The notes beneath the pieces were generated by a model, which worked only from the letters and a program-made list of their open reading frames with translations, ran no database searches and was not told the origin of the DNA. A stretch of 32,131 bases of DNA from Sulfurimicrobium sp. Its GTDB lineage: Bacteria; Pseudomonadota; Gammaproteobacteria; Burkholderiales; Sulfuricellaceae. The stretch covers positions 1 through 32,131 of the forward strand of contig JAUYFW010000188.1 in NCBI GenBank assembly GCA_030690835.1, read 5' to 3'. Both the position numbers and the translations under genes were made by a program. This document shows positions 20,153-31,526 of this stretch, piece after piece. Within the stretch, counting starts at the first letter, position 1; each line of letters starts with the position of its first letter.

Positions 20153-21244
20153 ATGAGTCTCAAATGCGGTATCGTCGGTCTGCCCAACGTCGGCAAGTCC
20201 ACCCTGTTCAACGCCATCACCAGCGCCGGCATCGCGGCTGAGAACTACCCCTTCTGCACCATCGAGCCCAACGTCGGCATCGTCGAAGTACCTGACTCGC
20301 GCATCGATTCGCTGGTAGAAATCGTCAAGCCGCAAAAAGTGCAGCACGCCATCATGGAATTCGTCGACATCGCCGGCCTGGTGGCCGGGGCGAGCAAGGG
20401 CGAAGGCCTGGGCAACAAATTCCTCGCCAACATCCGTGAAACCGATGCCATCGTCCATGTGGTGCGCTGTTTCGAGGACGTGGACGTGGTGCATGTGGCA
20501 GGCAAGGTCGACCCGATTTCCGACATCGAAGTGATCAACACCGAACTGGCGCTGGCCGACCTGGACACGGTAGAGAAGGCCGTGCTGCGCAGCAACAAGC
20601 TGGCCAAATCCGGCGACAAGGATGCGCTGCGCATGATGGCGCTGCTGGAAAAAGTGCGCGCCACGCTGGACCAGGGCCAACCCGCCCGCGGCATCAATCC
20701 GGACAAAGATGAAGAAGCCCTGCTCAAGCCGCTGTGCCTGATGACCATGAAACCCACCATGTACATCGCCAACGTCGACGAAGGCGGCTTCAGCAACAAC
20801 CCGTTCCTGGAAAAAGTGGAACAGCACGCCGCCCGGGAAGGCGCCCCCGTAGTCGCGATCTGCGCCGCGATCGAAGGCGAAATCGCCGATCTCGACGAAG
20901 CCGACAAGAAGGAGTTCCTCGCCGACATGGGCCTCGAAGAACCGGGCCTCAACCGCGTCATCCGCGCCGCCTACAAACTGCTCGGATTGCAGACCTACTT
21001 CACCGCCGGCGTCAAGGAAGTGCGCGCCTGGACCATCCATATCGGCGACACCGCCCCGCAGGCCGCGGGCGTAATCCACACCGACTTCGAACGCGGCTTC
21101 ATCCGCGCCCAGACCATCGCCTTCGAGGATTTCGTCGCCTGCAAGGGCGAACAGGGCGCCAAGGAAGCCGGCAAGATGCGTTCGGAAGGCAAGGAATACG
21201 TGGTGCGGGACGGAGATGTCTTGAATTTTCTGTTCAACGTTTAA
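20153..21244 (+). CDS. ychF: Redox-regulated ATPase YchF (Obg family)
   Basis: Conserved ribosome-associated P-loop ATPase of the translation-factor class, 363 residues. It has [15 protein letters not shown] (about 8-22), the [18 protein letters not shown] switch, NVDEGG in place of the G4 NKxD motif (the basis of ATP rather than GTP preference), and the C-terminal TGS domain ending [23 protein letters not shown] lies upstream of the ATG. The mobile element begins within 200 nt of its stop. Confidence 0.97.
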
Positions 21245-21437: not shown

Positions 21438-22706
21438 ATGTTGAACGACACCCAATGCCGCAATGCCAAACCCAAAGACAAGCCCTACAAGCTGAAAGAC
21501 AGCAACGGGCTGTATCTGGAAATCAAGCCCAACGGCGTCAAGGCATGGCGCTATCGCTTCGAGTTGCGCGAAGACGGCAAGATCAAGGAGAGCGTCTTTG
21601 CCATCGGCGACTATGCCAGCGCCCCCAGCGGCGAAATCCCGGAGGAAGTCAAGGCGCGGCGGGACGGCAGGCGCTTTACGCTGGCCGAGGCACGGGACGA
21701 GCGCACCAAGGCCCGCGCGCTGGTCAAGCAGGGAATCAACCCCGCGCAGCATCGGCAACTTGAGCGCATCAAGCGCGCACAGGAAAACGCTACCACCTTC
21801 GAGGCCGTGGCCAAGGAATGGCTGGCGCTGAAGGACTGGGAGGAAATCACCAAGAAACGCCGGCTCGATATGCTCACCCGAGTCGTGTTCCCCACCATTG
21901 GCGAGTTGCCGGTGAAGCAGGTCACGCCCCCGGTCATCCTCGGCATTCTCAAAAAGGCCGCCGAGAAAAATGGTGTAACCGTCATGGATGAAGCCAAGCG
22001 CACCCTGTTCGGCATCTTCGAATTGGCCGCCGAAACCTTCCGCGTCGATGCCAATCCCGTACATCAGTGGCGCGAAGCACTGCCGAAGAACAAGACCCAA
22101 CACAAGCGCCCGTTGGAGACTGCCGAGATCGGCCAACTATTGCGCGACTTCGATGGCCACGGCGGGAGACACGAAACCATCACCGCGTTTCGCCTGATGT
22201 GGCTGACGCTCACCCGCCCCAGCGAAGCCGTCGAAGCGAAATGGGAAGAATTCGATCTGGACGCGGCGATCTGGCGCATTCCTGCCGGTCGCATGAAGAT
22301 GCGCAGGGAGCATGTCGTCCCCTTGCCCACGCAGGCCGTGGAAATGCTGCGGGTGCTGCATGGCCTGACTGGTCGCCATGCTCACCTGTTCCCGCACAGG
22401 GACGACAAGACGAAGGCGATGGCGACGGCATCGTTCCGTCAGGCTTTGAATGTGCTCGGCTGGGCGGGCAAATACAGCCCCCATGCCACCCGGACAACGG
22501 GCAGCACGCGCCTGAACGAGCTGGGGTATGTGGCCGACTGGATCGAGCGCCAGTTGGCGCACGCCGAACCCAATGCGGTGCGGCGCACCTACAACCATGC
22601 CGAGCACCTGGCCGACCGCGCCAAGATGATGCAGCAATGGGCTGATATGCTCGATACTTGGAAGAAGGGCGACAACAACGTAACGCCCATCAGGCAGGCA
22701 GCATAA
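21438..22706 (+). CDS. P4-type tyrosine-recombinase integrase
   Basis: Catalyses site-specific insertion and excision of the element. The 422-residue protein has the N-terminal DUF4102 arm-binding domain (LNDTQCRNAKPKDKPYKLKDSNGLYLEIKPNG), a core-binding SAM-like region (TFEAVAKEWLALKDW...) and the catalytic domain. Visible catalytic residues are Arg in LTLTRPSEAVEAKWEE, HATR (HxxR box), LAHAE and the nucleophile Tyr in RRTYNHAEHLADR. GGAGA precedes the ATG. All key residues appear intact, so the enzyme may be active. It reads away from ychF into the element. Confidence 0.95.
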   Translation: MLNDTQCRNAKPKDKPYKLKDSNGLYLEIKPNGVKAWRYRFELREDGKIKESVFAIGDYASAPSGEIPEEVKARRDGRRFTLAEARDERTKARALVKQGINPAQHRQLERIKRAQENATTFEAVAKEWLALKDWEEITKKRRLDMLTRVVFPTIGELPVKQVTPPVILGILKKAAEKNGVTVMDEAKRTLFGIFELAAETFRVDANPVHQWREALPKNKTQHKRPLETAEIGQLLRDFDGHGGRHETITAFRLMWLTLTRPSEAVEAKWEEFDLDAAIWRIPAGRMKMRREHVVPLPTQAVEMLRVLHGLTGRHAHLFPHRDDKTKAMATASFRQALNVLGWAGKYSPHATRTTGSTRLNELGYVADWIERQLAHAEPNAVRRTYNHAEHLADRAKMMQQWADMLDTWKKGDNNVTPIRQAA

Positions 22707-23231: not shown

Positions 23232-23399
23232 ATGACCAAAAACAACAAGGGCCGCGCCCCCGTTCAGGACGCGACCCCAAAGACTGCCGATAGCCGTAAT
23301 CATACAGGAACCGATCCGATGATAGGCTGGTTCAATCTCGCCAAACCTTCACGCACCCGCCAGCAAAAGCGCGGATGCCAGAGAGGGGCGCGGAAATGA
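23232..23399 (+). CDS. Small basic hypothetical protein
   Basis: A 55-residue basic frame (MTKNNKGRAPVQDATPKTAD... ending KRGCQRGARK) between the AlpA-like gene and the primase. Its TGA overlaps the primase ATG (ATGA, 23396-23399), which supports translation as part of the same operon. No domain is recognised and the Shine-Dalgarno is poor (GGCGGCG). Confidence 0.5.
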   Translation: MTKNNKGRAPVQDATPKTADSRNHTGTDPMIGWFNLAKPSRTRQQKRGCQRGARK

Positions 23400-25771
23400 C
23401 CGGCGATATTGAACGCATCCGCGAAGCCCTGCAATTCATGCCTGTCGGCGGACACGATGAGCGCGTGCGCGTGGCCTGCATGGTGAGGTCTGAATTGGGC
23501 GACCTGGGCCGCGACTTATGGGACGAATGGCGGGCCGGGCGCGGCGACGATGAGGCGGCATCCGTCTGGAAGAGCGTCCGGGCGGGCGGCAAGCTGACTA
23601 TCGGCACCCTGTTCTATGAAGCCAAGGCGAACGGCTGGCGCGATGATGGAATGCACCAGAAACCGACACCCGAAGAGCTTGCCGAGCGGCGGCGCATTGC
23701 GGCGGAACGGGCCGCAAAAGAGGAAGCCGAGATAGCCCGCGAACGTACCGACACGGCGAAAAAAGCGGTGGCGATCCTGAAGGCGGCAACCGAAGCGAAA
23801 GCCGATCATCCCTACCTTTCGCGCAAGCGGGTTTCACCCGTGGCAACCCTGCGAGAGATTGATGCGGGCGCGGCGGCGGCGATCTTGGGCTATGCGCCGA
23901 ACTGTCGCGGCGATGCACTGACCGGGCGCTTGCTGGTGGTTCCAGTCAAGCAAGGCGATGGCATATCAACGCTGGAACTAATAGACGGCAACGGGCGCAA
24001 AGCGGCGCTGGCCGGGCGCGGTAGCAAGGTGGGCGGGTATTGGGCAACCGAACGTCTGCCCGATGGCGACGGCGCGGGCCTGACCCTGCTGATAGGTGAA
24101 GGCGTGGCGACCGTGCTATCTGCATCGGCGGCAACCGAGCATCCCGGCATAGCGGCGCTATCGTCGGGCAACCTGCCGACCGTGGCGAAGGCGATGCGCG
24201 AACGCTATCCGCAAGCGGTGATAGTGATTCTGGCCGATCTGGTGAAGGCAACCGGCGAGCCTGATCCCCATGCAATCGAGGCAGCAAAAGTCGGCGCTGG
24301 CGGCACGGCAATCCCTGACTTCGGAAGCGACCGCGATCCCGACATGAAGGACATGAACGACCTGTTCATTCTTGGCGGCGCGGAAGCCGTAGCGCAAGCC
24401 ATAGCGAACGCGAGCGCACCCACAAGGGGTGAGTACCAACCCGGCAATGATGACGCGCCAGCGGTCGAATATGCGCGGAATGTTGATCTGATCCGCGCCA
24501 GCGACGTGACACCTGAGCCGATTGCATGGCTTTGGAATGGCTGGCTGGCGGCGGGCAAGATGCACGTCTTTGGCGGCGCACCAGGCACCGGCAAGACGAC
24601 GATCAGCATGGGCCTGGCGGCGACTGTGACAACCGGCGGACGCTGGCCGGATGGCACCCGATCCATTGCCGGGAACGTGGTGATCTGGAGCGGCGAGGAT
24701 GATCCCGCCGATACATTGATTCCCCGGCTGGCCCTGTCTGGTGCTGATCTATCCCGCGTCTACTTCATTGCCGAGATTCGAGAGGGCAACGAGCGGCGAT
24801 CCTTTGACCCTGCCCGAGATATGGAACCGCTACGGCGCAAGCTGGCCGAAATCGGCGGCGTGAAATTGCTGATCGTTGATCCTGTTGTTTCGGCAATCGC
24901 GGGAGACAGTCACAAGAATGCAGAGGTACGGCGCGGACTGCAACCATTGGTTGATCTGGCCGGTTCGATGCGCTGCGCCCTGCTGGGTATCACGCACTTT
25001 TCCAAAGGCACCGGGGGGCGTGATCCGGTAGAGCGATTGACTGGAAGCCTAGCCTTCGGCGCACTGGCCCGCGTGGTATTGGTGGCGGCGAAGCACCAGG
25101 AGGAAGGCGAGGACGGGCGCACTGTGCGGCTGTTTTGCCGTGCCAAGTCCAACATTGGCCCGGATGACGGTGGCTTTGAATACGACTTGCAGCAGGCTGA
25201 ACTGAAAACGCATCCGGGCATTTTCGCATCGTCGGTGCTGTGGGGTGAGGCGGTGGAAGGTGCTGCGCGGGAACTGTTAGCGACGGCAGACGCGACCGGC
25301 GACGATGGCGAAGGCGGCACCCTGGCCGATGCCAAGCGGTTTCTTTCTGATCTGCTGGCGGATGGCCCATTGCCGACCAAAGCCATCAAGGCGGATGCGG
25401 ATGGCGCGGGGTATTCCTGGGCAACGATCCGGCGAGCGCAAAAGACGCTTGGAATTGAGCCGGTGAAGGAAGGCATGAAAGGTGGATGGGTTTGGCGGAT
25501 GCCTGGGCAAGAGGCAGCGAAAGCGATCCTTGAAAACGCGAAGATGCTCAAAAATGCTGAAGATGCCCAACGAAAAGAGGTGAGCACCTTCATGGTGATC
25601 CGGGCGCGGTGGAGGTGGAGGTATGACCCCGGCGACCATCATCCTCGCGGCGCAATCGGAAGGGGTGAGGCTGGCCCTTTCCCCTACTGGAACCATCAAG
25701 GCGACCGGCGACGGCGCGGCGGTGAATCGCTGGCTGGCAGTGATCCGCGAACACAAGGCGGAAATCATTGA
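23396..25771 (+). CDS. Primase-helicase (PriCT-2, Toprim and RepA-like AAA ATPase domains), probable 3' frameshift
   Basis: Replication protein of the element, 791 residues as it stands. It begins with a PriCT_2-like domain (DIERIREALQFM...LGRDLWDEWRAG...WKSVRAGGKLTIGTLFYEAKANGW, about 1-75), then a coiled Ala/Glu region, a Toprim domain (LLIGEGVATVLSASAAT...ALSSGNL...VIVILAD, about 205-330; its acidic motif LADLVKATGEPDP looks unusual) and a RecA/RepA-type ATPase with Walker A GGAPGTGKTTI (about 393-403), WSGEDDP and Walker B LLIVDPV (about 490). The last about 50 codons read through into the next gene in another frame and look non-protein-like (ARWRWRYDPGDHHPRG). In the -1 frame the text EHLHGDPGAVEVEV ends at TGA 25624-25626, overlapping the next ATG, so the natural end is probably there. 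One copy of the 23-base motif lies at 24287. Confidence 0.88.
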   Translation: MTGDIERIREALQFMPVGGHDERVRVACMVRSELGDLGRDLWDEWRAGRGDDEAASVWKSVRAGGKLTIGTLFYEAKANGWRDDGMHQKPTPEELAERRRIAAERAAKEEAEIARERTDTAKKAVAILKAATEAKADHPYLSRKRVSPVATLREIDAGAAAAILGYAPNCRGDALTGRLLVVPVKQGDGISTLELIDGNGRKAALAGRGSKVGGYWATERLPDGDGAGLTLLIGEGVATVLSASAATEHPGIAALSSGNLPTVAKAMRERYPQAVIVILADLVKATGEPDPHAIEAAKVGAGGTAIPDFGSDRDPDMKDMNDLFILGGAEAVAQAIANASAPTRGEYQPGNDDAPAVEYARNVDLIRASDVTPEPIAWLWNGWLAAGKMHVFGGAPGTGKTTISMGLAATVTTGGRWPDGTRSIAGNVVIWSGEDDPADTLIPRLALSGADLSRVYFIAEIREGNERRSFDPARDMEPLRRKLAEIGGVKLLIVDPVVSAIAGDSHKNAEVRRGLQPLVDLAGSMRCALLGITHFSKGTGGRDPVERLTGSLAFGALARVVLVAAKHQEEGEDGRTVRLFCRAKSNIGPDDGGFEYDLQQAELKTHPGIFASSVLWGEAVEGAARELLATADATGDDGEGGTLADAKRFLSDLLADGPLPTKAIKADADGAGYSWATIRRAQKTLGIEPVKEGMKGGWVWRMPGQEAAKAILENAKMLKNAEDAQRKEVSTFMVIRARWRWRYDPGDHHPRGAIGRGEAGPFPYWNHQGDRRRRGGESLAGSDPRTQGGNH
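24287..24309 (+). repeat. Dispersed 23-base motif, copy 1 (inside primase gene)
   Basis: Begins AAAGTCGGCGCTGG and ends ACGGC. It is read in frame as K-V-G-A-G-G-T-A at about residue 298, between the Toprim domain and the ATPase. Confidence 0.8.
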
Positions 25772-26369
25772 CGTACTGAAAGTCGGCGCTGGTGATACGG
25801 CGACCGCTTCCCGCTGGTGGCTGATTCACTACCCCGACCGCGATCCGGTGGAAATGGCCTGCTGTCCCGAGGCGACCCATGCCGAGATTCTGGAACGGCA
25901 CCCGGACGCGGTAGCGGCGGAGCCTTTTACCCCTACCATCCGGCAACCATCGGCACCCATGACCGCCGAAGCGGAAACGGCAATCCGGGAATGGCTGGCA
26001 CTGATCGAGGAAACCGACCCGGCGACCATTGCCGAAGTGATAGGCCAGTGCCAGCGGGATACGGATGCGCGGGACTACTTCACCCGGCGAGCGGCGGAGG
26101 AGTTACCGAAACCTGACCCCTTCCCCGATGACCGGCGCACCTGCGACCAATGCGCGAACCTGATAGCCCAGCGATGCCAAGCGGCGAAGCGTGGCGAGAT
26201 TGTGGCGGGACGGAACTATGAGCCGATCCGCGACCTACCCCGGCGCTGTGAAGGCTACGCACCGGGCGCGGCTGATGCCGACCGGCGACCGGGCCGGAAA
26301 CGCTGGTTCTCAGTCAATCAACCGAAGGATTTCGACACAATCGGAGGCGAGCATGGGCGGGCGAGGTAG
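25623..26369 (+). CDS. TubC N-terminal-domain-like hypothetical protein of mobile elements
   Basis: A 248-residue protein. Residues 1-50 (ATIILAAQSEGVRLALSPTGTIKATGDGAAVNRWLAVIREHKAEIIDVL) look like a TubC-type docking domain. Next comes KVGAGDTATASRWW, containing a copy of the dispersed motif, then HYPDRDPVEMACCPEATHAEILERHPDAV, and a C-terminal Cys-rich stretch (TCDQCANLIAQRCQAAKRG...RRCEGY). GGAGG (25611-25615) and a second GGAGG (25617-25621) precede the ATG. I know the family only as a recurrent neighbour of such primases; its role in the element is unknown. Confidence 0.8.
   Translation: MTPATIILAAQSEGVRLALSPTGTIKATGDGAAVNRWLAVIREHKAEIIDVLKVGAGDTATASRWWLIHYPDRDPVEMACCPEATHAEILERHPDAVAAEPFTPTIRQPSAPMTAEAETAIREWLALIEETDPATIAEVIGQCQRDTDARDYFTRRAAEELPKPDPFPDDRRTCDQCANLIAQRCQAAKRGEIVAGRNYEPIRDLPRRCEGYAPGAADADRRPGRKRWFSVNQPKDFDTIGGEHGRAR
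25779..25801 (+). repeat. Dispersed 23-base motif, copy 2 (inside TubC-like gene)
   Basis: AAAGTCGGCGCTGG, four variable bases (TGAT), then ACGGC. It is read in frame as K-V-G-A-G-D-T-A at about residue 53, exactly at the joint between the docking-like domain and the rest of the protein. Confidence 0.85.
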
Positions 26370-26751
26370 CGGGCGATTCGGGGAACGGGGCGGTAGACCG
26401 ACGACAGGCGATGCCTTGCGCGTGACCATCGGCGAGCTGCTACTTGGTCGGCTGATGCGCAATATCGGTGTGCTGTTTCTGACAGATGACCGAGTGCTCA
26501 TCAACTTCTTCGGTTGCCGAACGGTTGAGGCCGGACTCACGACCACGCGGCATCGCAACGGCGGGCCGCGCCGCTGGTTCGCCTGCCCGCGCTGCGACAG
26601 ACGTTGTGCCGTGCTGTATCTGCGCGGCGGAGCGCTAGCCTGTCGGCAGTGTCACGGGCTGGTCTATGCCAGCCAGCGAGAGAGTTACGCTAGCCGAAAG
26701 CTGCGCGTGCAAATTCTGCGCGAGTGGCAGGCATATCGGTCAAGCGGCTGA
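26353..26751 (+). CDS. Zinc-ribbon hypothetical protein
   Basis: A 132-residue protein starting MGGRGSGRFGERGGRPTTGD, a Gly/Arg-rich N-terminus, then a beta-rich middle and a zinc ribbon CPRCDRRCAVLYL...ACRQCHGLVYASQRES. Such proteins are common on phages and integrative elements and probably bind nucleic acid. GGAGG (26343-26347) precedes the ATG, which lies inside the 3' end of the previous gene (17-nt overlap). It ends one base before the stop of the convergent gene. Confidence 0.78.
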   Translation: MGGRGSGRFGERGGRPTTGDALRVTIGELLLGRLMRNIGVLFLTDDRVLINFFGCRTVEAGLTTTRHRNGGPRRWFACPRCDRRCAVLYLRGGALACRQCHGLVYASQRESYASRKLRVQILREWQAYRSSG

Positions 26752-26940
26752 CTAGCTGCTGTTGCGCCGCGCCCAGTTGAGTATGGCCGCCTCCATGCGC
26801 CCGAAGAGCCCCTTGCCCTCGAAGCGGAATTCCTGACGATAGTGCTTGTGGCCGCAGCCGTCGATGACGATGGGGTCGTCAGGCGGGAAGGCGGGGAAAT
26901 GGAATTCCCGATTGGGGACTTGCTCGCTGGCCTCAGTCAT
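26752..26940 (-). CDS. Small hypothetical protein, last gene of the seven-gene envelope operon
   Basis: A 62-residue soluble protein (MTEASEQVPNREFHFPAFPP...GCGHKHYRQEFRFEGKGLFGRMEAAILNWARRNSS). No known domain; the His/Cys cluster GCGHKHYR is the only notable feature. The ATG at 26940 overlaps the stop of the upstream membrane protein by 8 nt, indicating coupling. Its stop directly abuts the stop of the convergent zinc-ribbon gene. Confidence 0.6.
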   Translation of the reverse strand: MTEASEQVPNREFHFPAFPPDDPIVIDGCGHKHYRQEFRFEGKGLFGRMEAAILNWARRNSS

Positions 26941-27187
26941 CGACAGTGCTCCGGGTGAATTGCTGGATTTCCGCATTTTCCGCCGCATCCTTCTTGAATT
27001 GTTCGATAGCAAGCCGCCCACCGACCATTGCGCCGAGTGTGAATGTCAGCAATGCCCACCCGCCGAGAAAATACACGCCAGCCCCCAAGGCGGCAAGGAA
27101 CAGCATGGCGCTACCCGGCCCTTTGTTGATCGCATAGTTGAACTGGACGAAGCCTGCTACGAAGAACAAAACGGCATGGCCGATCAC
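26933..27187 (-). CDS. Small membrane protein
   Basis: An 84-residue protein with hydrophobic segments IGHAVLFFVAGFVQFNYAI and AMLFLAALGAGVYFLGGWALLTFTLGAMVGG (two or three TM helices) and a charged tail EQFKKDAAENAEIQQFTRSTVDD. It starts with GTG at 27187, overlapping the upstream stop (GTGA). Not recognised. Confidence 0.65.
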   Translation of the reverse strand: MIGHAVLFFVAGFVQFNYAINKGPGSAMLFLAALGAGVYFLGGWALLTFTLGAMVGGRLAIEQFKKDAAENAEIQQFTRSTVDD

Positions 27188-27621
27188 GAGCGGCCCTTCT
27201 CGTCGGTCTTCTTCTCCACCAGGTCGATGAACGCCTGGCTGATCTCCTGATTCATCTCGGTGTAAAGCTTGTGCATTTCCTTGAGGTGGAGTTCCGCTTC
27301 GCTTTCTTCTTCCTCTTTCTCGTATTCTTCATCATCATTCTGGATGGTCGATGGCGATGGTGGACTCTGGCTCAGGCCGTACATCTCGGCCTTCTCCCAA
27401 CTCGACAGGTGGCTCAGGCCCGGCTCCAGCTTTACCCGAATTTCCTCCCGCTCCTGCGCCTTGAGTGCATCCAGATATTCGCCGGACGCGATCAGTTCCT
27501 TGACCGACTGCGGCCAGCCCAATGCCCATCGGTTGGCGATCTCGATAGCCGTGTCGGACATCTGGCCGATGGCCTGCCGTAGTTCCTGCGGATACTGGCG
27601 AGGGTTGTGGATGGGTTGCAT
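27184..27621 (-). CDS. Acidic coiled-coil hypothetical protein
   Basis: A 145-residue soluble protein: an N-terminal helical half (YPQELRQAIGQMSDTAIEIANRWALGWPQSVKELIASGEYLDAL...), then a very acidic stretch (NDDEEYEKEEEESEAELHL) and a helical end (LYTEMNQEISQAFIDLVEKKTDEKGRS). No signal peptide. It lies between two membrane-protein genes with gaps of 5 and -4 nt. Possibly the cytoplasmic partner of the membrane proteins; function not recognised. Confidence 0.7.
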   Translation of the reverse strand: MQPIHNPRQYPQELRQAIGQMSDTAIEIANRWALGWPQSVKELIASGEYLDALKAQEREEIRVKLEPGLSHLSSWEKAEMYGLSQSPPSPSTIQNDDEEYEKEEEESEAELHLKEMHKLYTEMNQEISQAFIDLVEKKTDEKGRS

Positions 27622-27626
27622 GGTCG

Positions 27627-28631
27627 TTATCGCCCAACATTTCTTACCAAGGGAATGCGCCTGTTCAATTCGTCTCGCTTTTCGTTCATGGTCTTCGGGT
27701 CGGCGCCGAGTTCTTGTATCTTGTCAATGGCGGCAAAATCTTCATGGGAAACCGGTGCGGGCGCAAACCATAGCTTGACGGCAATAGCCAACGTAGAGGC
27801 GGCAATGATGCCGAGCAAAGCACGCTCAAGACTGATTGCTGGCAGTTTCATGGTGCTCAGGCGTGCCACAAACTGCGCTGGGGTTGCCAATACCGAGTGT
27901 GCATCGGTGCTGGCAGTGGCTTTGCTTTTTGCCTTCTGCCGCCCGAAATAGACACCCAGTCCCGCGCCGAGCACGGCAGACCAAATCGCTTTTCCCATCA
28001 TCGTTGGGATGAGTTGCTTGAAGGCACCGGGAATTTCTGGCATCAGGGCATCCATGGCAAAGGCCCAGGCAGCAATCACGGCTGGCCCGCCGATGGCGAG
28101 ACCCGCCAGAAAGCCGACGACTTGGCGCCAGAGCTTCAGTTCAGACCTGTTGAGCAGAAAGCCAATAGTCCAGGCACCGCCAAATGCAACTACCTGTAGC
28201 AGGACGCCGTACAGCGTCACGGAGCCTGCGATCAGAGACTGTGCGGAATCGCCGGGCGTCCCCTTGGCGACATTTACCGGTGGTGCAGGTATATCGGGCG
28301 ATACGTCCATTCGCCGCAGGAATTCGGTACGCACTTCGGCGAATTCACTGGTCAGGCCATCTGCCACGACATGCGGGGCAATCCAGTAATCGAAATAAGC
28401 GACCTTGGCTTCGGCCTGCTTGGCAGGGGGTAGTGCCTGGAACTCCTGTTTGGTCGCAATGTCGCGCCACTTCGGAGCTTTGGACAAGTCAGGCAATAGA
28501 TCGCTGGCGGGTGTGCTCTGCGTTGGTGCTTTCGGCGTCTGGTCAAAGAACTTGGACAAGTCCTGACTATCACCCTGGCCGGCAAACACGGGCTGGGTCA
28601 GTAGCATGAAAATCAGGATGAATAGCCGCAT
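27627..28631 (-). CDS. Multi-pass membrane protein with cleavable signal peptide
   Basis: A 334-residue protein. A signal peptide (MRLFILIFMLLTQPVFA) leads to an about 110-residue external part (KWRDIATKQEFQALPPAKQAEAKVAYFDYWIAPHV, resembling the short motif seen in phage and virion-like proteins), then four TM segments at YGVLLQVVAFGGAWTIGFLL, VVGFLAGLAIGGPAVIAAWAF, MMGKAIWSAVLGAGLGVYF and ALLGIIAASTLAIAVKLWF, and a charged end. The start at 28631 is chosen because the signal peptide begins there. Largest member of the operon and its likely membrane core; no family recognised. Confidence 0.7.
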   Translation of the reverse strand: MRLFILIFMLLTQPVFAGQGDSQDLSKFFDQTPKAPTQSTPASDLLPDLSKAPKWRDIATKQEFQALPPAKQAEAKVAYFDYWIAPHVVADGLTSEFAEVRTEFLRRMDVSPDIPAPPVNVAKGTPGDSAQSLIAGSVTLYGVLLQVVAFGGAWTIGFLLNRSELKLWRQVVGFLAGLAIGGPAVIAAWAFAMDALMPEIPGAFKQLIPTMMGKAIWSAVLGAGLGVYFGRQKAKSKATASTDAHSVLATPAQFVARLSTMKLPAISLERALLGIIAASTLAIAVKLWFAPAPVSHEDFAAIDKIQELGADPKTMNEKRDELNRRIPLVRNVGR

Positions 28632-28636
28632 CGCTG

Positions 28637-28981
28637 TTACCGCCGTAGATCGACGTCGTTTTCGCAACTGATGGCCGACGTGCGCGTTTCCGTGTCGCGC
28701 CAGACCATGCAGCGCTTCGATTCAACCATCGGGAAATCTTCCGGTGCCCATGCGGCAGGTAGCGGAACGTCGATGACAAGCAGTTGCCCATGTTGTGTCT
28801 CGAAAACTCTTGTTTCTGCTTTCGCGGAGTTGAGTAGCCGAGCTGCTCTTTCCTTGCGGGTCTGTGCTCTGGCCGCCGCTTCCCGCTCGTTCTTCTTCGC
28901 GGTATCGCTCCACCAGATGAACACAGCCAGTGCCAGCGATCCGATGACAACCCACATGGCGATTTTCTTGAACGATTCCAT
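28637..28981 (-). CDS. Single-TM hypothetical protein
   Basis: A 114-residue protein with one N-terminal TM helix (KIAMWVVIGSLALAVFIWW), a basic coiled segment (KKNEREAAARAQTRKERAARLL) and a small C-terminal domain with two cysteines (KRCMVWRDTETRTSAISCEND) that could form a disulfide outside the membrane. Five nt separate it from the next gene and 2 nt from the previous one. Confidence 0.65.
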   Translation of the reverse strand: MESFKKIAMWVVIGSLALAVFIWWSDTAKKNEREAAARAQTRKERAARLLNSAKAETRVFETQHGQLLVIDVPLPAAWAPEDFPMVESKRCMVWRDTETRTSAISCENDVDLRR

Positions 28982-28983
28982 AC

Positions 28984-29394
28984 CTACCGCCCAACGATGG
29001 CATCCAGAACCCTGCCCTTGTCATCGACGCACACGCCGCCACCGCCCGATCCATCCGACGTGAATTCGCAGCGTAGTCCGCGCCCGGCAGGCGACGACAG
29101 AATGGCCTTGACGCTTGCTGTCCCGCCAGCACTGACGACCGTTCCCGTCATGACGCCGGTTTTCGCGCCGTATTGCTGAATGACTCCGAAGCTGTCGCTC
29201 GACCCAGTACGCACCACTGGCCCGGTGAATTGTTCGCCGTCGATGGTGATGGTCATTGTGCCGGCGCCTGTAGCGCTGCCTTGCACCGTGCCGGAATACA
29301 CCTTGCCAGAGTCGCGCGGCATCATCTGCACGAAGCCGGTACAGCCGGACAAGATCAGGGGAGCAACGCATGCGGCAACGATCATTTTTCGCAT
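28984..29394 (-). CDS. Lipoprotein with Gly-rich beta domain
   Basis: A 136-residue lipoprotein: MRKMIVAACVAPLILSGC (lipobox LSGC), then a beta-rich domain (GKVYSGTVQGSATGAGTMTITIDGEQFTGPVV...FTSDGSGGGGVCVDD) with two later cysteines. The start at 29394 has GAGG six bases upstream; the ATG at 29406 (adding MRYA) overlaps the previous stop as ATGA and is equally possible. Not recognised beyond lipoprotein. Confidence 0.72.
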   Translation of the reverse strand: MRKMIVAACVAPLILSGCTGFVQMMPRDSGKVYSGTVQGSATGAGTMTITIDGEQFTGPVVRTGSSDSFGVIQQYGAKTGVMTGTVVSAGGTASVKAILSSPAGRGLRCEFTSDGSGGGGVCVDDKGRVLDAIVGR

Positions 29395-29402
29395 GGCGTA
29401 CC

Positions 29403-29753
29403 TCATTTCCGTATTTCAATAACTGAGTCGGCTTCCTTGCGAAGCTTCGGACGCTTCAACTCGGCATCATGGGAGTCAAGGCACATGAATTGAACTTCGG
29501 CGGATGGCATCCTTGAGCCAATCAAGGCCTCTACCTGATTCGTGCCTACCACTTGGAAAGTTTTCCCTTGTGAATTGCAAAACTCATTTGCTTCGCGGAA
29601 AACATCAGCTTTAACGCTGGAAGCCGCAACAAAAGCGCCACCCGCACTTTGCTTAGAAATCATGTACGTGTCTTTACCAATGGGCACTGGCCCGCTTGAG
29701 GCGCAACCTGTCAATGACAGCACGCTCAGAGCGGCGACAACGGCCTTTTTCAT
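29403..29753 (-). CDS. Lipoprotein, first gene of the seven-gene envelope operon
   Basis: A 116-residue lipoprotein starting MKKAVVAALSVLSLTGC (lipobox LTGC). The mature part (DTYMISKQSAGGAFVAASSVKADVFREANEFCNSQGKTFQVV...EVQFMCLDSHD) has two cysteines and resembles small periplasmic lipoproteins often seen on integrative elements. The ATG at 29753 suits the AGGGA signal; the ATG at 29759 is too close to it. Divergent from the XRE regulator, which may control the operon. Confidence 0.72.
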   Translation of the reverse strand: MKKAVVAALSVLSLTGCASSGPVPIGKDTYMISKQSAGGAFVAASSVKADVFREANEFCNSQGKTFQVVGTNQVEALIGSRMPSAEVQFMCLDSHDAELKRPKLRKEADSVIEIRK

Positions 29754-29759
29754 GGACAT

Positions 29760-29835
29760 TTCCCTAATGTTCTTGGTGTTGGAGTGGGTATCGTATCCCG
29801 TGGTATCAAGTTCAGCAAGTATTCAGCATGACGGG
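29760..29835. promoter_or_regulatory. Divergent control region of the envelope operon and XRE gene
   Basis: A 76-nt gap between oppositely oriented genes. GTATC occurs three times (in GGTATCGTATC and GTGGTATCAAG), which could be binding sites for the XRE protein. No strong -10/-35 pair is seen by eye. Confidence 0.35.
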
Positions 29836-30081
29836 ATGGCAAGACCATCTCCAATTCATGCTGGCGACCCTGCACTTGTAGGCATCGGGCGGGCTATTCG
29901 CGAACTGCGGTCGACGATCGGGCTGTCGCAAGAGGCGCTGGCCCACGAGGCCGGTGTTGATCGCAGCTACATGGGCGGTATTGAACGCGGCGAGCACAAC
30001 ATGACCATCATCAACCTGCTGCGCATCAGCCGCTGTCTGAAAATCACTGTCAGCGAGCTATTGCACCGGGCGGGTGTGTAG
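29836..30081 (+). CDS. XRE-family helix-turn-helix regulator
   Basis: An 81-residue Cro/C1-type DNA-binding protein: IGRAIRELRSTIGLSQEALAHEAGVDRSYMGGIERGEHNMTIINLLRISRCLKITVSELLH is a complete five-helix HTH_3 domain. The ATG at 29836 is the simplest start; the frame is open upstream into the divergent gene. Its position suggests it represses or activates the envelope operon and itself. Confidence 0.85.
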   Translation: MARPSPIHAGDPALVGIGRAIRELRSTIGLSQEALAHEAGVDRSYMGGIERGEHNMTIINLLRISRCLKITVSELLHRAGV

Positions 30082-30095
30082 CCGATAGTTGCTGG

Positions 30096-30118
30096 AAAGT
30101 CGGCGCTGGCAGGACGGC
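30096..30118 (+). repeat. Dispersed 23-base motif, copy 3 (non-coding)
   Basis: AAAGTCGGCGCTGG, then CAGG, then ACGGC, 14 nt after the XRE stop codon and outside any convincing gene. Confidence 0.85.
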
Positions 30119-30198
30119 GGCAGATTCGATGCCTGAGTGCAGTGCGATTGAAGAGCCGACGAGCCGGGATTACACTGGTCGCCCTGGAGCAATGAACC

Positions 30199-30441
30199 AT
30201 GCCGCCCAACGATCCACCGACAGCAAATCAGCCGCAACCGCCGAGCAATGCATCGGCGGTCATCCCGCATCCCGCGATGACGGAAACGCAGTTGCAGGCC
30301 ATCGAGAGGTGCAAGCGGGAGACCGGAACCGACATGACGCCCATCGTGAATCTGGTGATGCGAATGCGCGAGAACCCAAAGATCGAGCAAGCCTTGACAC
30401 AGGCGATGGCGCAGGTCAAGAAGGATCACGTGCAGGCATAG
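30199..30441 (+). CDS. Small hypothetical protein
   Basis: An 80-residue protein with a Pro/Asn-rich start and a helical rest (TETQLQAIERCKRETGTDMTPIVNLVMRMRENPKIEQALTQAMAQVKKDHVQA). GGAG lies about 10 nt before the ATG. No known domain; the helical part reads like a genuine protein. Confidence 0.5.
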   Translation: MPPNDPPTANQPQPPSNASAVIPHPAMTETQLQAIERCKRETGTDMTPIVNLVMRMRENPKIEQALTQAMAQVKKDHVQA

Positions 30442-30457
30442 CGCCCACGATGCATCG

Positions 30458-30727
30458 CTACTCTCGCCGATCAATTCGGCGCTGGCGGTTCTCGTAATAG
30501 CGGAGAAGAAGTCTGCCAACGGGGAGCAGAACACCACGTTCCAGCAGATCACCCAGCCGGTGCCAGAATCTCAACTGAACGCCCCGGCGAATGTCGAAGG
30601 CGTGACGAGGAAGCGAATCATCCACTGGCGCTCGGTCGGACTCGGGCCAGTGATGAACGGTAGGAATCTGGTCGGCGATCTGCCAGTAGGCCTTGCCGGA
30701 ATTCTCATCAATAGGCGCGTTGGACAT
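30458..30727 (-). CDS. Small hypothetical protein
   Basis: An 89-residue frame (MSNAPIDENSGKAYWQIADQIPTVHHWPE... GVLLPVGRLLLRYYENRQRRIDRRE) with a basic C-terminus. It follows the 63-residue gene by 4 nt, so the two may form one unit. A 13-base partial match to the dispersed motif (30476-30488) lies in its last codons. Not recognised. Confidence 0.45.
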   Translation of the reverse strand: MSNAPIDENSGKAYWQIADQIPTVHHWPESDRAPVDDSLPRHAFDIRRGVQLRFWHRLGDLLERGVLLPVGRLLLRYYENRQRRIDRRE

Positions 30728-30731
30728 GGCG

Positions 30732-30923
30732 CTACTCGGTTGGGGCGCGCATGCGGATGTGGGAGACATTCCCTTCGTCGTCGATGAAGTGGCGGCAAAT
30801 GTTCATCGTCGCCGGTTCTGCCTGCACCTTGTTGCCGGAACGAGGTTCGGCGCGCTGAGCCGGGACGCTGGCCGGTGCAGACCCCTTGGCGAACAACTTG
30901 ATGAAACGCGCGATCAGATTCAT
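30732..30923 (-). CDS. Small hypothetical protein
   Basis: A 63-residue protein: an amphipathic N-terminus (MNLIARFIKLFAKG), an Ala/Pro/Arg linker and NICRHFIDDEGNVSHIRMRAPTE. GGGGG precedes the ATG. Followed closely by another small gene on the same strand. Not recognised. Confidence 0.45.
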   Translation of the reverse strand: MNLIARFIKLFAKGSAPASVPAQRAEPRSGNKVQAEPATMNICRHFIDDEGNVSHIRMRAPTE

Positions 30924-31071
30924 GCCGGCCCCCGTGATAGGAAAACCCTCGCAGGACTCTCTGGGAAGCAGGCCGAGCCTGACTTGATCCAGCCGTTTAC
31001 GAGGACAGCACCGAGCAAGCCCGATGCGCGATCAAGTATAGCTAATGCCAACGGGACTGGCGATAGCGCCA

Positions 31072-31094
31072 AAAGTCGGCGCTGGCGAGACGGC
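31072..31094 (+). repeat. Dispersed 23-base motif, copy 4 (non-coding)
   Basis: AAAGTCGGCGCTGG, CGAG, ACGGC. The preceding AGCGCC pairs with GGCGCT inside the motif, giving this copy a local hairpin. Confidence 0.85.
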
Positions 31095-31230
31095 ACCACC
31101 AACTGACTGCCCGGCGCAGCCGGCCAGCGAGCGCGCCGCAAGGCGAGCAAGCGCGGCCCAACGGTTGAACGTAAGCCACGGGTGCGCAGCACTGGATAGA
31201 CAAATGCACAGCGCCGAATAGCGCAGTTGT

Positions 31231-31454
31231 CCGGGCTGGGGCGCAAGACATAACAGACCATTACCCGAACCCGAGAGGGCGCGCAGCGGCCCAAGCCGGG
31301 AGCAGCTTTGCTGCGGTAGGCGCAGCGGCTTTGGGTAATGCGCTGTTATGTTCAATCGCTTGCGATTTACCCCGGCCCGGCAGTGTGCAATTGAGCGTAG
31401 CGAACCGGGCAGGTTGTTCCCGACGTAGCCGCTGAAGCCGTGGGCGGCTTTTTT
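31231..31454 (+). ncRNA. Candidate structured RNA: large palindrome plus terminator
   Basis: A hierarchical stem pairs CCGGGCTGGGG (31231-31241) with CCCCGGCCCGG (31370-31380, one G-U), ACATAACAG (31248-31256) with CTGTTATGT (31343-31351), and ATTACCC (31260-31266) with GGGTAAT (31333-31339). Inside lies GCAGC-TTT-GCTGC (31302-31314); AATCGC-TT-GCGATT (31354-31367) is an alternative small hairpin. A strong terminator ends at 31454. The 5' end is unknown and could begin near the motif at 31072. No Rfam family is recognised. Confidence 0.5.
31427..31454 (+). terminator. Intrinsic terminator in the gene-poor region
   Basis: AGCCGC (31427-31432) pairs with GCGGCT (31444-31449) around an 11-nt loop and is followed by TTTTTT (31449-31454). 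No protein gene ends here on the plus strand, so it implies an untranslated transcript. Confidence 0.75.
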
Positions 31455-31503
31455 GCCGACGGCGCAAGCGGCGGGCAGTACGCGACCAGGCCAGTCAAGG
31501 CCA

Positions 31504-31526
31504 AAAGTCGGTGCTGGCGAGACGGC
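31504..31526 (+). repeat. Dispersed 23-base motif, copy 5 (non-coding)
   Basis: Identical to copy 4 except T for C at the ninth base (AAAGTCGGTGCTGG, CGAG, ACGGC). It opens the second structured unit. Confidence 0.85.

Follow-up and report, generated by a model that had tools for sequence, protein, structure and literature searches.

The window, by which we mean the whole 32,131-base stretch of a Sulfurimicrobium sp. contig analysed here, consists of 21 kb of chromosome ending with ychF, followed by a mobile element that begins at a tyrosine integrase and continues past the contig end. The element contains five copies of a 23-nt motif, all on the + strand, and one degenerate copy. The genes and copies are disposed as follows:

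20153..21244, + strand: ychF, the last chromosomal gene before the element (92% identity to the same-genus genome G016)
21438..22706, + strand: tyrosine integrase forming the element's left end, which follows the chromosomal ychF (Phage_integrase domain at E 2.5e-21, Arm-DNA-bind_3 at E 3.7e-21)
23375..25771, + strand: primase/helicase of the element, with AAA_25, Toprim_3 and PriCT_2 domains
24287..24309, + strand: motif copy 1, exact, centre CGGC, in frame as K-V-G-A-G-G-T-A within the primase/helicase gene
25779..25801, + strand: motif copy 2, exact, centre TGAT, in frame as K-V-G-A-G-D-T-A in the linker of a TubC-like open reading frame (ORF)
30096..30118, + strand: motif copy 3, exact, centre CAGG, 14 nt past the stop codon of a helix-turn-helix regulator gene (HTH_3 match)
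30472..30494, + strand: degenerate copy, caatTCGGCGCTGGcggttctcg, with the left-arm part TCGGCGCTGG retained and the right arm gone
31072..31094, + strand: motif copy 4, exact, centre CGAG, probably non-coding
31504..31526, + strand: motif copy 5, centre CGAG, with T at position 9 as its one mismatch, probably non-coding

The motif reads AAAGTCGGCGCTGG-N4-ACGGC, with two fixed arms around a free 4-base centre (N4). None of the five copies contains an indel, and the number expected by chance in the window is 0.08 (mean over 100 shuffles, largest 1). A scan of both strands of the window at up to three mismatches found no further copy, leaving the 21 kb of chromosome with none. Copies 3, 4 and 5 overlap mechanical ORFs only, and position 24, just outside the 23 nt, is A in two copies and G in three. 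The observation behind the original prediction, namely five co-oriented copies without indels, the first two read as K-V-G-A-G-x-T-A in two genes, a partial copy near 30476 and a motif-free chromosome, is confirmed. Its interpretation is partly supported, as described below. Since ychF is 92% identical to that of a genome of the same genus, which is motif-poor, the chromosomal part of the window fits the host's family.

The genome to which the window belongs has 13 copies at up to one mismatch, located on a handful of contigs, and none of a backwards control. The assembly has 6.4% contamination, so that copies on other contigs may be foreign, whereas the copies in the window share a single contig with chromosomal DNA of the host. 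Any copy at all was found in 9 of 22 genomes of the host's own family, in 26 of 399 genomes sampled from the order and in 13 of 369 from the class, where the maximum is three copies except in the window's own genome. In one other family of the same order, represented by an even draw of 199 genomes from a larger group, 82 genomes have a copy and 21 have between 158 and 660 (up to one mismatch). These 21 are all the sampled members of six genera (6, 5, 4, 4, 1 and 1 genomes), and summed over them there are 4395 forward and 4369 reverse copies versus a control total of 2. The next highest count in the family is 50, in G448, which uses a dialect of the motif. Among the matches listed, 98 of 120 named loci with exact copies bear the name Sulfuritalea, Rugosibacter, Sulfurisoma, Rhodocyclaceae or Rhodocyclales and 22 are named otherwise. 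The motif thus recurs throughout the chromosomes of a set of Rhodocyclaceae-type genomes, whereas the window's host is motif-poor and its copies were brought by the integrated element. The genome scans place the motif far above control in 21 genomes rather than at the background frequency that would have spoken against the original prediction. That prediction had expected enrichment in the element's family with a fixed polarity; the motif is instead a signature of a host lineage, with hundreds of copies on both strands, and the strict polarity seen in the window's element gives way to balanced strands in the motif-rich genomes.

A protein tree of YchF from 30 hand-chosen genomes, of which 14 are motif users (12 motif-rich genomes, G448 and G428), needs two label changes to account for motif use compared with 10.2 for shuffled labels (0/500 as low). 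The tree represents one gene, with several open forks, and a single change suffices in 7% of its bootstrap trees, so that motif use may or may not have had a single origin.

The consensus was determined in most depth for one motif-rich genome, G167, where a 1.0-Mb sample contains 187 sites at up to two mismatches (72 exact, 78 with one mismatch and 37 with two). The backwards control gives none at this threshold and one at three mismatches. The consensus is AAA(G/c)TCGGCGCTGG-CGGG-ACGGC-AC, in which positions 15-18 are loosely biased and flanks outside 0 and +25 hold less than 0.25 bits. Other genera mostly have G at position 24 and a different centre, for instance YRAC in G546; this comparison is based on 3 to 33 sites per genome, one genome contributing a single 20-kb stretch. 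The predicted 23-nt unit can be refined to a constrained unit of ~25 nt, with a genus-specific preference at position 24 and, in some genera, at 25. The dialect of G448 is AAAGTCGACGCTGG-N4-ACGGC, having A at position 8 where most genera have G. Its consensus was derived from 209 kb of contigs selected for containing matches, and across the whole genome it occurs 284 times versus once for the control (position 8 free, two mismatches allowed). Dialects differ between related genera, as judged from these small samples.

How copies arise was examined by aligning 200 kb each of G167 and G040, two genomes of one genus. At up to two mismatches, the alignment spans 26 of 47 G167 sites and 22 of 31 G040 sites, of which two are gapped, both in a region of hairpin repeats. 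In a stricter set limited to exact sites, a usable orthologue is present for 18 of 32 sites in G167 and 8 of 11 in G040, and 17 of the 18 and all 8, respectively, are ungapped. Each of the eight G040 sites has an exact counterpart in G167, where the flanks would predict 1.94 (P 3.9e-6), and in the reverse direction 8 of the 18 G167 sites have one in G040 (3.73 predicted, P 0.015), the two directions sharing the same eight sites. Divergence in the two directions is 0.080 and 0.000 at the fixed positions, 0.194 and 0.156 in the N4 centre, and 0.119 and 0.111 in the flanks. The fixed letters are thus conserved and the spacer is free to drift, and it is by substitution that sites are gained and lost. 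Conservation of this kind, at the level of DNA, fits the recognition site that had been predicted.

The two coding copies of the window were compared with relatives of their proteins. Three close relatives of the primase (71-78% protein identity) have the same length at the position where the window has KVGAGGTA, L389 and L391 carrying RSVGGKLA and L390 carrying RSVGGLLA, whereas L388, in another motif-poor host, carries KVGAGRTA. At the nucleotide level the close relatives can also be aligned using small gaps that compensate one another, which leaves room for a patch having been replaced but not for a 23-nt unit having been inserted. More distant relatives (32-55% identity) align at the motif with or without gaps. 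The TubC-like copy does not decide the matter because it sits in a linker whose length varies among relatives. Protein constraint, an alternative raised with the original prediction, is rejected, as primase homologues do not always carry KVGAG and several reading frames are in use. An insertion or excision scar is likewise rejected, based on the G167/G040 orthologues and the close primase relatives, and with it the tiny insertion unit that had been proposed. A scar had been suggested by an early pairwise comparison with inserts inside the motif, but a wider survey found such forms to be few. The filter for them was crude, giving 26 candidates, many of which are a normal copy plus a chance ACGGC, versus 455 short forms, with overlapping loci counted twice.

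Certain repeats related to the motif are longer. In G167, a 54-bp hairpin repeat (for example, at 209053, 213592, 227993 and 1963720), in places tandem, begins with the left arm of the motif, continues with an inverted motif-like right arm and ends with a full or nearly full motif. Convergent pairs of arms number 9 in this genome versus 0.6 expected, and most belong to this family. Inserts judged by eye to be hairpin-like are found inside motif copies of metagenome-assembled genomes of Rhodocyclaceae at L097:688(+), L076:3913(+), L124:6236(-), L044:7022(-) and L082:6439(+). In 4.3 Mb of DNA, three of four occurrences of one insert core and both occurrences of another lie inside a motif.

With regards to placement, 119 of 182 G167 sites are coding and 63 non-coding, compared with 394 and 98 of 492 random positions (P 1e-4). 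Coding was called with a home-made codon-usage score, 5 of the 187 sites were dropped for lying near chunk ends, and random positions were drawn 12 per chunk, which under-samples the single long chunk. Among the 119 coding copies, 51 are read as K-V-G-A-G-x-T-A, 35 on the reverse strand as A-V-x-P-A-P-T and 33 in the other four frames, whereas random positions spread over all six frames (frame bias P 1e-14). When the G167 sample is divided into chromosome halves by GC skew, orientations are 52+/48- and 43+/44-. Replication polarity is rejected on this balance, and the Chi-like signal mentioned in the original prediction fares no better. Two of the 41 G167 chunks lack a site.

Two smaller contigs of G040 (149 and 103 kb) have no copy at up to two mismatches, where 33 would be expected from the density of the chromosome. 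They carry genes with TraG_N, TraC and TraI_2 domains, and their G+C content is 0.55 and 0.58 versus 0.63. The absence of the motif from these plasmid-like contigs also disagrees with the predicted enrichment in the element's family. A search of plasmid and phage collections with the consensus as query returned only partial matches, in 16 plasmid and 2 phage records, none covering 80%. One viral contig has five exact copies at L222:883-2238, the first four being exactly 316 bp apart, probably as a tandem repeat.

Taken as a whole, the motif appears to be a genome-wide signal of self-DNA in Rhodocyclaceae-type bacteria and is probably a DNA uptake sequence, of the kind abbreviated DUS in Neisseriaceae and USS (uptake signal sequence) in Pasteurellaceae. 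The features that suggest this are its lineage-limited abundance, presence on both strands, strong consensus, origin in place, tolerated reading frames and dialects, together with the lack of copies on both plasmid-like contigs. A broader claim can be made with somewhat less assurance but still seems likely from the sequences compared: in these environmental bacteria, signals for the uptake of self-DNA would have evolved independently for a third time, with a longer, bipartite tag of 14, a free 4 and 5-7 nt, dialects by genus, and integrating elements that carry the tag into foreign hosts.

Biased uptake by a putative pilus-borne receptor, combined with molecular drive, is the mechanism best supported, and we infer the remaining steps along with it. 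A receptor for DNA on the cell surface, belonging to the type IV pilus/competence machinery, would bind the arms AAAGTCGGCGCTGG and ACGGC, with the free 4-base spacer keeping the two bound arms at a fixed distance. Fragments bearing the motif would be taken up and recombined more often than others, so that copies born by point mutation could spread and be restored by molecular drive, persisting chiefly in intergenic DNA and in those frames that a protein can accommodate. The window's element presumably lived in a lineage using the motif, where it would have gained its copies in place, and then integrated beside ychF in a motif-poor host, in which the copies would be passengers.

Several observations weigh against an uptake sequence. 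The competence genes do not discriminate motif-rich from motif-poor genomes: the DNA uptake channel ComEC was found in all 26 genomes examined, rich and poor alike, and pilins of the ComP_DUS family, regardless of motif, in 18 of 18 genomes and again in 14 of 15, the exception being the dialect user G448. ComP_DUS as a marker of motif use is consequently rejected, and because both proteins also occur in motif-poor genomes, their presence permits an uptake sequence but does not support one. The motif-rich genomes have 158-660 copies, fewer than the counts of 943 to nearly 6000 given for the dominant DUS dialect in most species cited in PMC3630211. Of the 18 exact G167 sites, ten have an imperfect counterpart in G040, and use is uneven within one genus, G428 having 20 copies (48 in the dialect scan) and its genus mate G484, a genome 79% complete, having 1 (3). 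Both plasmid-like contigs come from a single genome. A strict self-tag is expected to be rare in mobile DNA, but five copies lie on the integrating element of the window and others in at least 120 viral-contig stretches, which could be viruses or host flanks. Lastly, a strongly selected chromosome-wide protein site would share most of the properties listed above.

Such a site constitutes the main rival. The motif could be bound by an intracellular protein that organizes the chromosome or acts in DNA metabolism (nucleoid, segregation, repair or recombination), and be maintained by ordinary selection. This would account for the chromosome-wide distribution, the conserved fixed bases with a free spacer, the lineage restriction and the absence from the smaller G040 contigs, and sites in one 200-kb stretch of G167 are indeed spaced more evenly than random (coefficient of variation 0.58, n 44). 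However, we consider it unlikely, as there is neither replication polarity nor strong regional clustering in the sampled megabase, despite the two empty chunks, and as many coding copies fall in preferred frames and dialects change from genus to genus. Furthermore, a consensus as strong as that in G167, with 72 exact and 78 one-mismatch sites per Mb, is anomalous for sites of regulatory proteins according to PMC1626085.

Mobility offers two further explanations. A small mobile or insertion unit, similar to repetitive extragenic palindromes (REP) or miniature inverted-repeat transposable elements (MITE), or its excision scar, could have been spread by the element or by a transposase of the host. 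Sharp boundaries, hundreds of copies and longer hairpins with motif arms are what such a unit would leave, as are the two gapped G167/G040 sites in the hairpin region and a 21-nt insert within the motif that distinguishes the orthologous pair L097 and L044. It is nonetheless very improbable given the ungapped orthologues of 17 of 18 and 8 of 8 exact sites, the three close primase relatives of equal length without the motif (several distant ones being gapped there), the lack of copies on both plasmid-like contigs and the small number of longer insert forms, of which the five above are the named examples. Alternatively, the motif could be the element's own site for integration, nicking or packaging, as five co-oriented copies in 10.9 kb might suggest. 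Among the matches listed, neighbours closer than 2 kb in motif-poor genomes are also mostly co-oriented (15 same, 2 opposite) compared with 9 and 14 in G167 (P 0.003). At 2-5 kb the difference disappears (11/6 versus 46/24 in G167), and the sample is small, with some pairs beyond 5 kb left out. We regard an element site as extremely unlikely, because hundreds of copies are present in G167, G040, G408 and G415, where no relative of the primase was found at a threshold of E 1e-30, and the stretches around two relatives, L498 and L499, have no copy.

Among known repeats, Chi- and KOPS-type (FtsK orienting polar sequence) motifs are over-represented, non-palindromic, chromosome-wide and polar; the motif here shares the first three properties but has no strand bias by chromosome half. 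REP/MITE-like repeats are dispersed with sharp boundaries and resemble it in this and in some hairpin relatives, yet no insertion signature is found at its orthologous sites. The DUS of Neisseriaceae is 10-12 nt long, whereas the motif is 23-25 nt, bipartite with a free 4-base spacer and present in only hundreds of copies (158-660), its receptor being putative. Inverted pairs are common for DUS but here belong mainly to one repeated 54-bp hairpin family in G167. The two are alike in having many exact copies, both coding and intergenic, and dialects, which in Neisseriaceae follow phylogeny (PMC3630211). Pasteurellaceae USS differ in sequence and lineage but are similar in their strong consensus and in arising by substitution rather than insertion, as Redfield et al. 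concluded from the same kind of orthologue test (PMC1626085). The coding share is also comparable, at 119 of 182 versus 65% of USS copies (PMC1626085), and an extended USS is long as well, with a 29 bp construct mentioned in PMC1939737. The USS receptor is itself just predicted, as ComN/PpdA (PMC12616744).

PMC1939737 and PMC7811141 describe uptake specificity as characteristic of two families. A search of the open-licence literature, with subscription papers and preprints outside its scope, returned neither a report of an uptake sequence in Rhodocyclales or Rhodocyclaceae nor any paper containing the letters of the motif. If the motif is an uptake sequence, it would add a third lineage, whose tag is built differently, and so imply that such self-recognition evolves repeatedly. 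It would also offer a new system for varying tag, dialects and candidate receptor together. Judging from record titles, the groups concerned probably live in groundwater, lakes and sludge, in contrast to the animal-associated Neisseriaceae and Pasteurellaceae. The tag could also serve as a tracer of gene flow, here marking DNA that probably resided in one group before its transfer to another.

With five copies in 10.9 kb versus 1.9 expected at the density of G167 (P 0.04), the element is only slightly denser in the motif than a motif-rich chromosome, and its five copies were themselves the reason for choosing it. A close-match search with the element sequence among plasmids gave no match, and an RNA family is rejected, as Rfam gathering thresholds yielded just one tRNA, distant from the element.

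Two genes of the element have a composite appearance. The primase/helicase (23423-25771) looks mosaic, its N-terminal 350 residues resembling relatives in G427 and G480 and its C-terminal helicase half resembling G512 (87%), with a joint near 24437-24506. The TubC-like gene (25623-26369) looks chimeric in comparison with L495:10010 and L497:12135, to which it is 86-87% identical from the first base of the motif onward, whereas the N-termini ahead of the motif are unrelated. Further upstream, L497 contains another motif-like stretch (KVGAC). This chimera may be a single recombination joint, motif edges not being general breakpoints. Motif edges account for 2 of 122 alignment ends, with a control mean of 0.41 (largest 3), and for 1 of 190, with a control mean of 0.82, and a general role as recombination joints is rejected on these counts.

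Outside the window, the first 200 kb of G040:C1 contain an array resembling clustered regularly interspaced short palindromic repeats (CRISPR), in which overlapping 10- and 12-mers such as CAAAGGGATT occur ~58 times each. Within the last kb of the element, an inverted repeat at 31248-31351 has 26-nt arms that are 85% complementary and separated by 52 nt, and this stretch has a relative in L497 (80%). Near the contig end, a small gene at 31764-32123 matches a PHROG 'toxin' family (E 5.1e-24).

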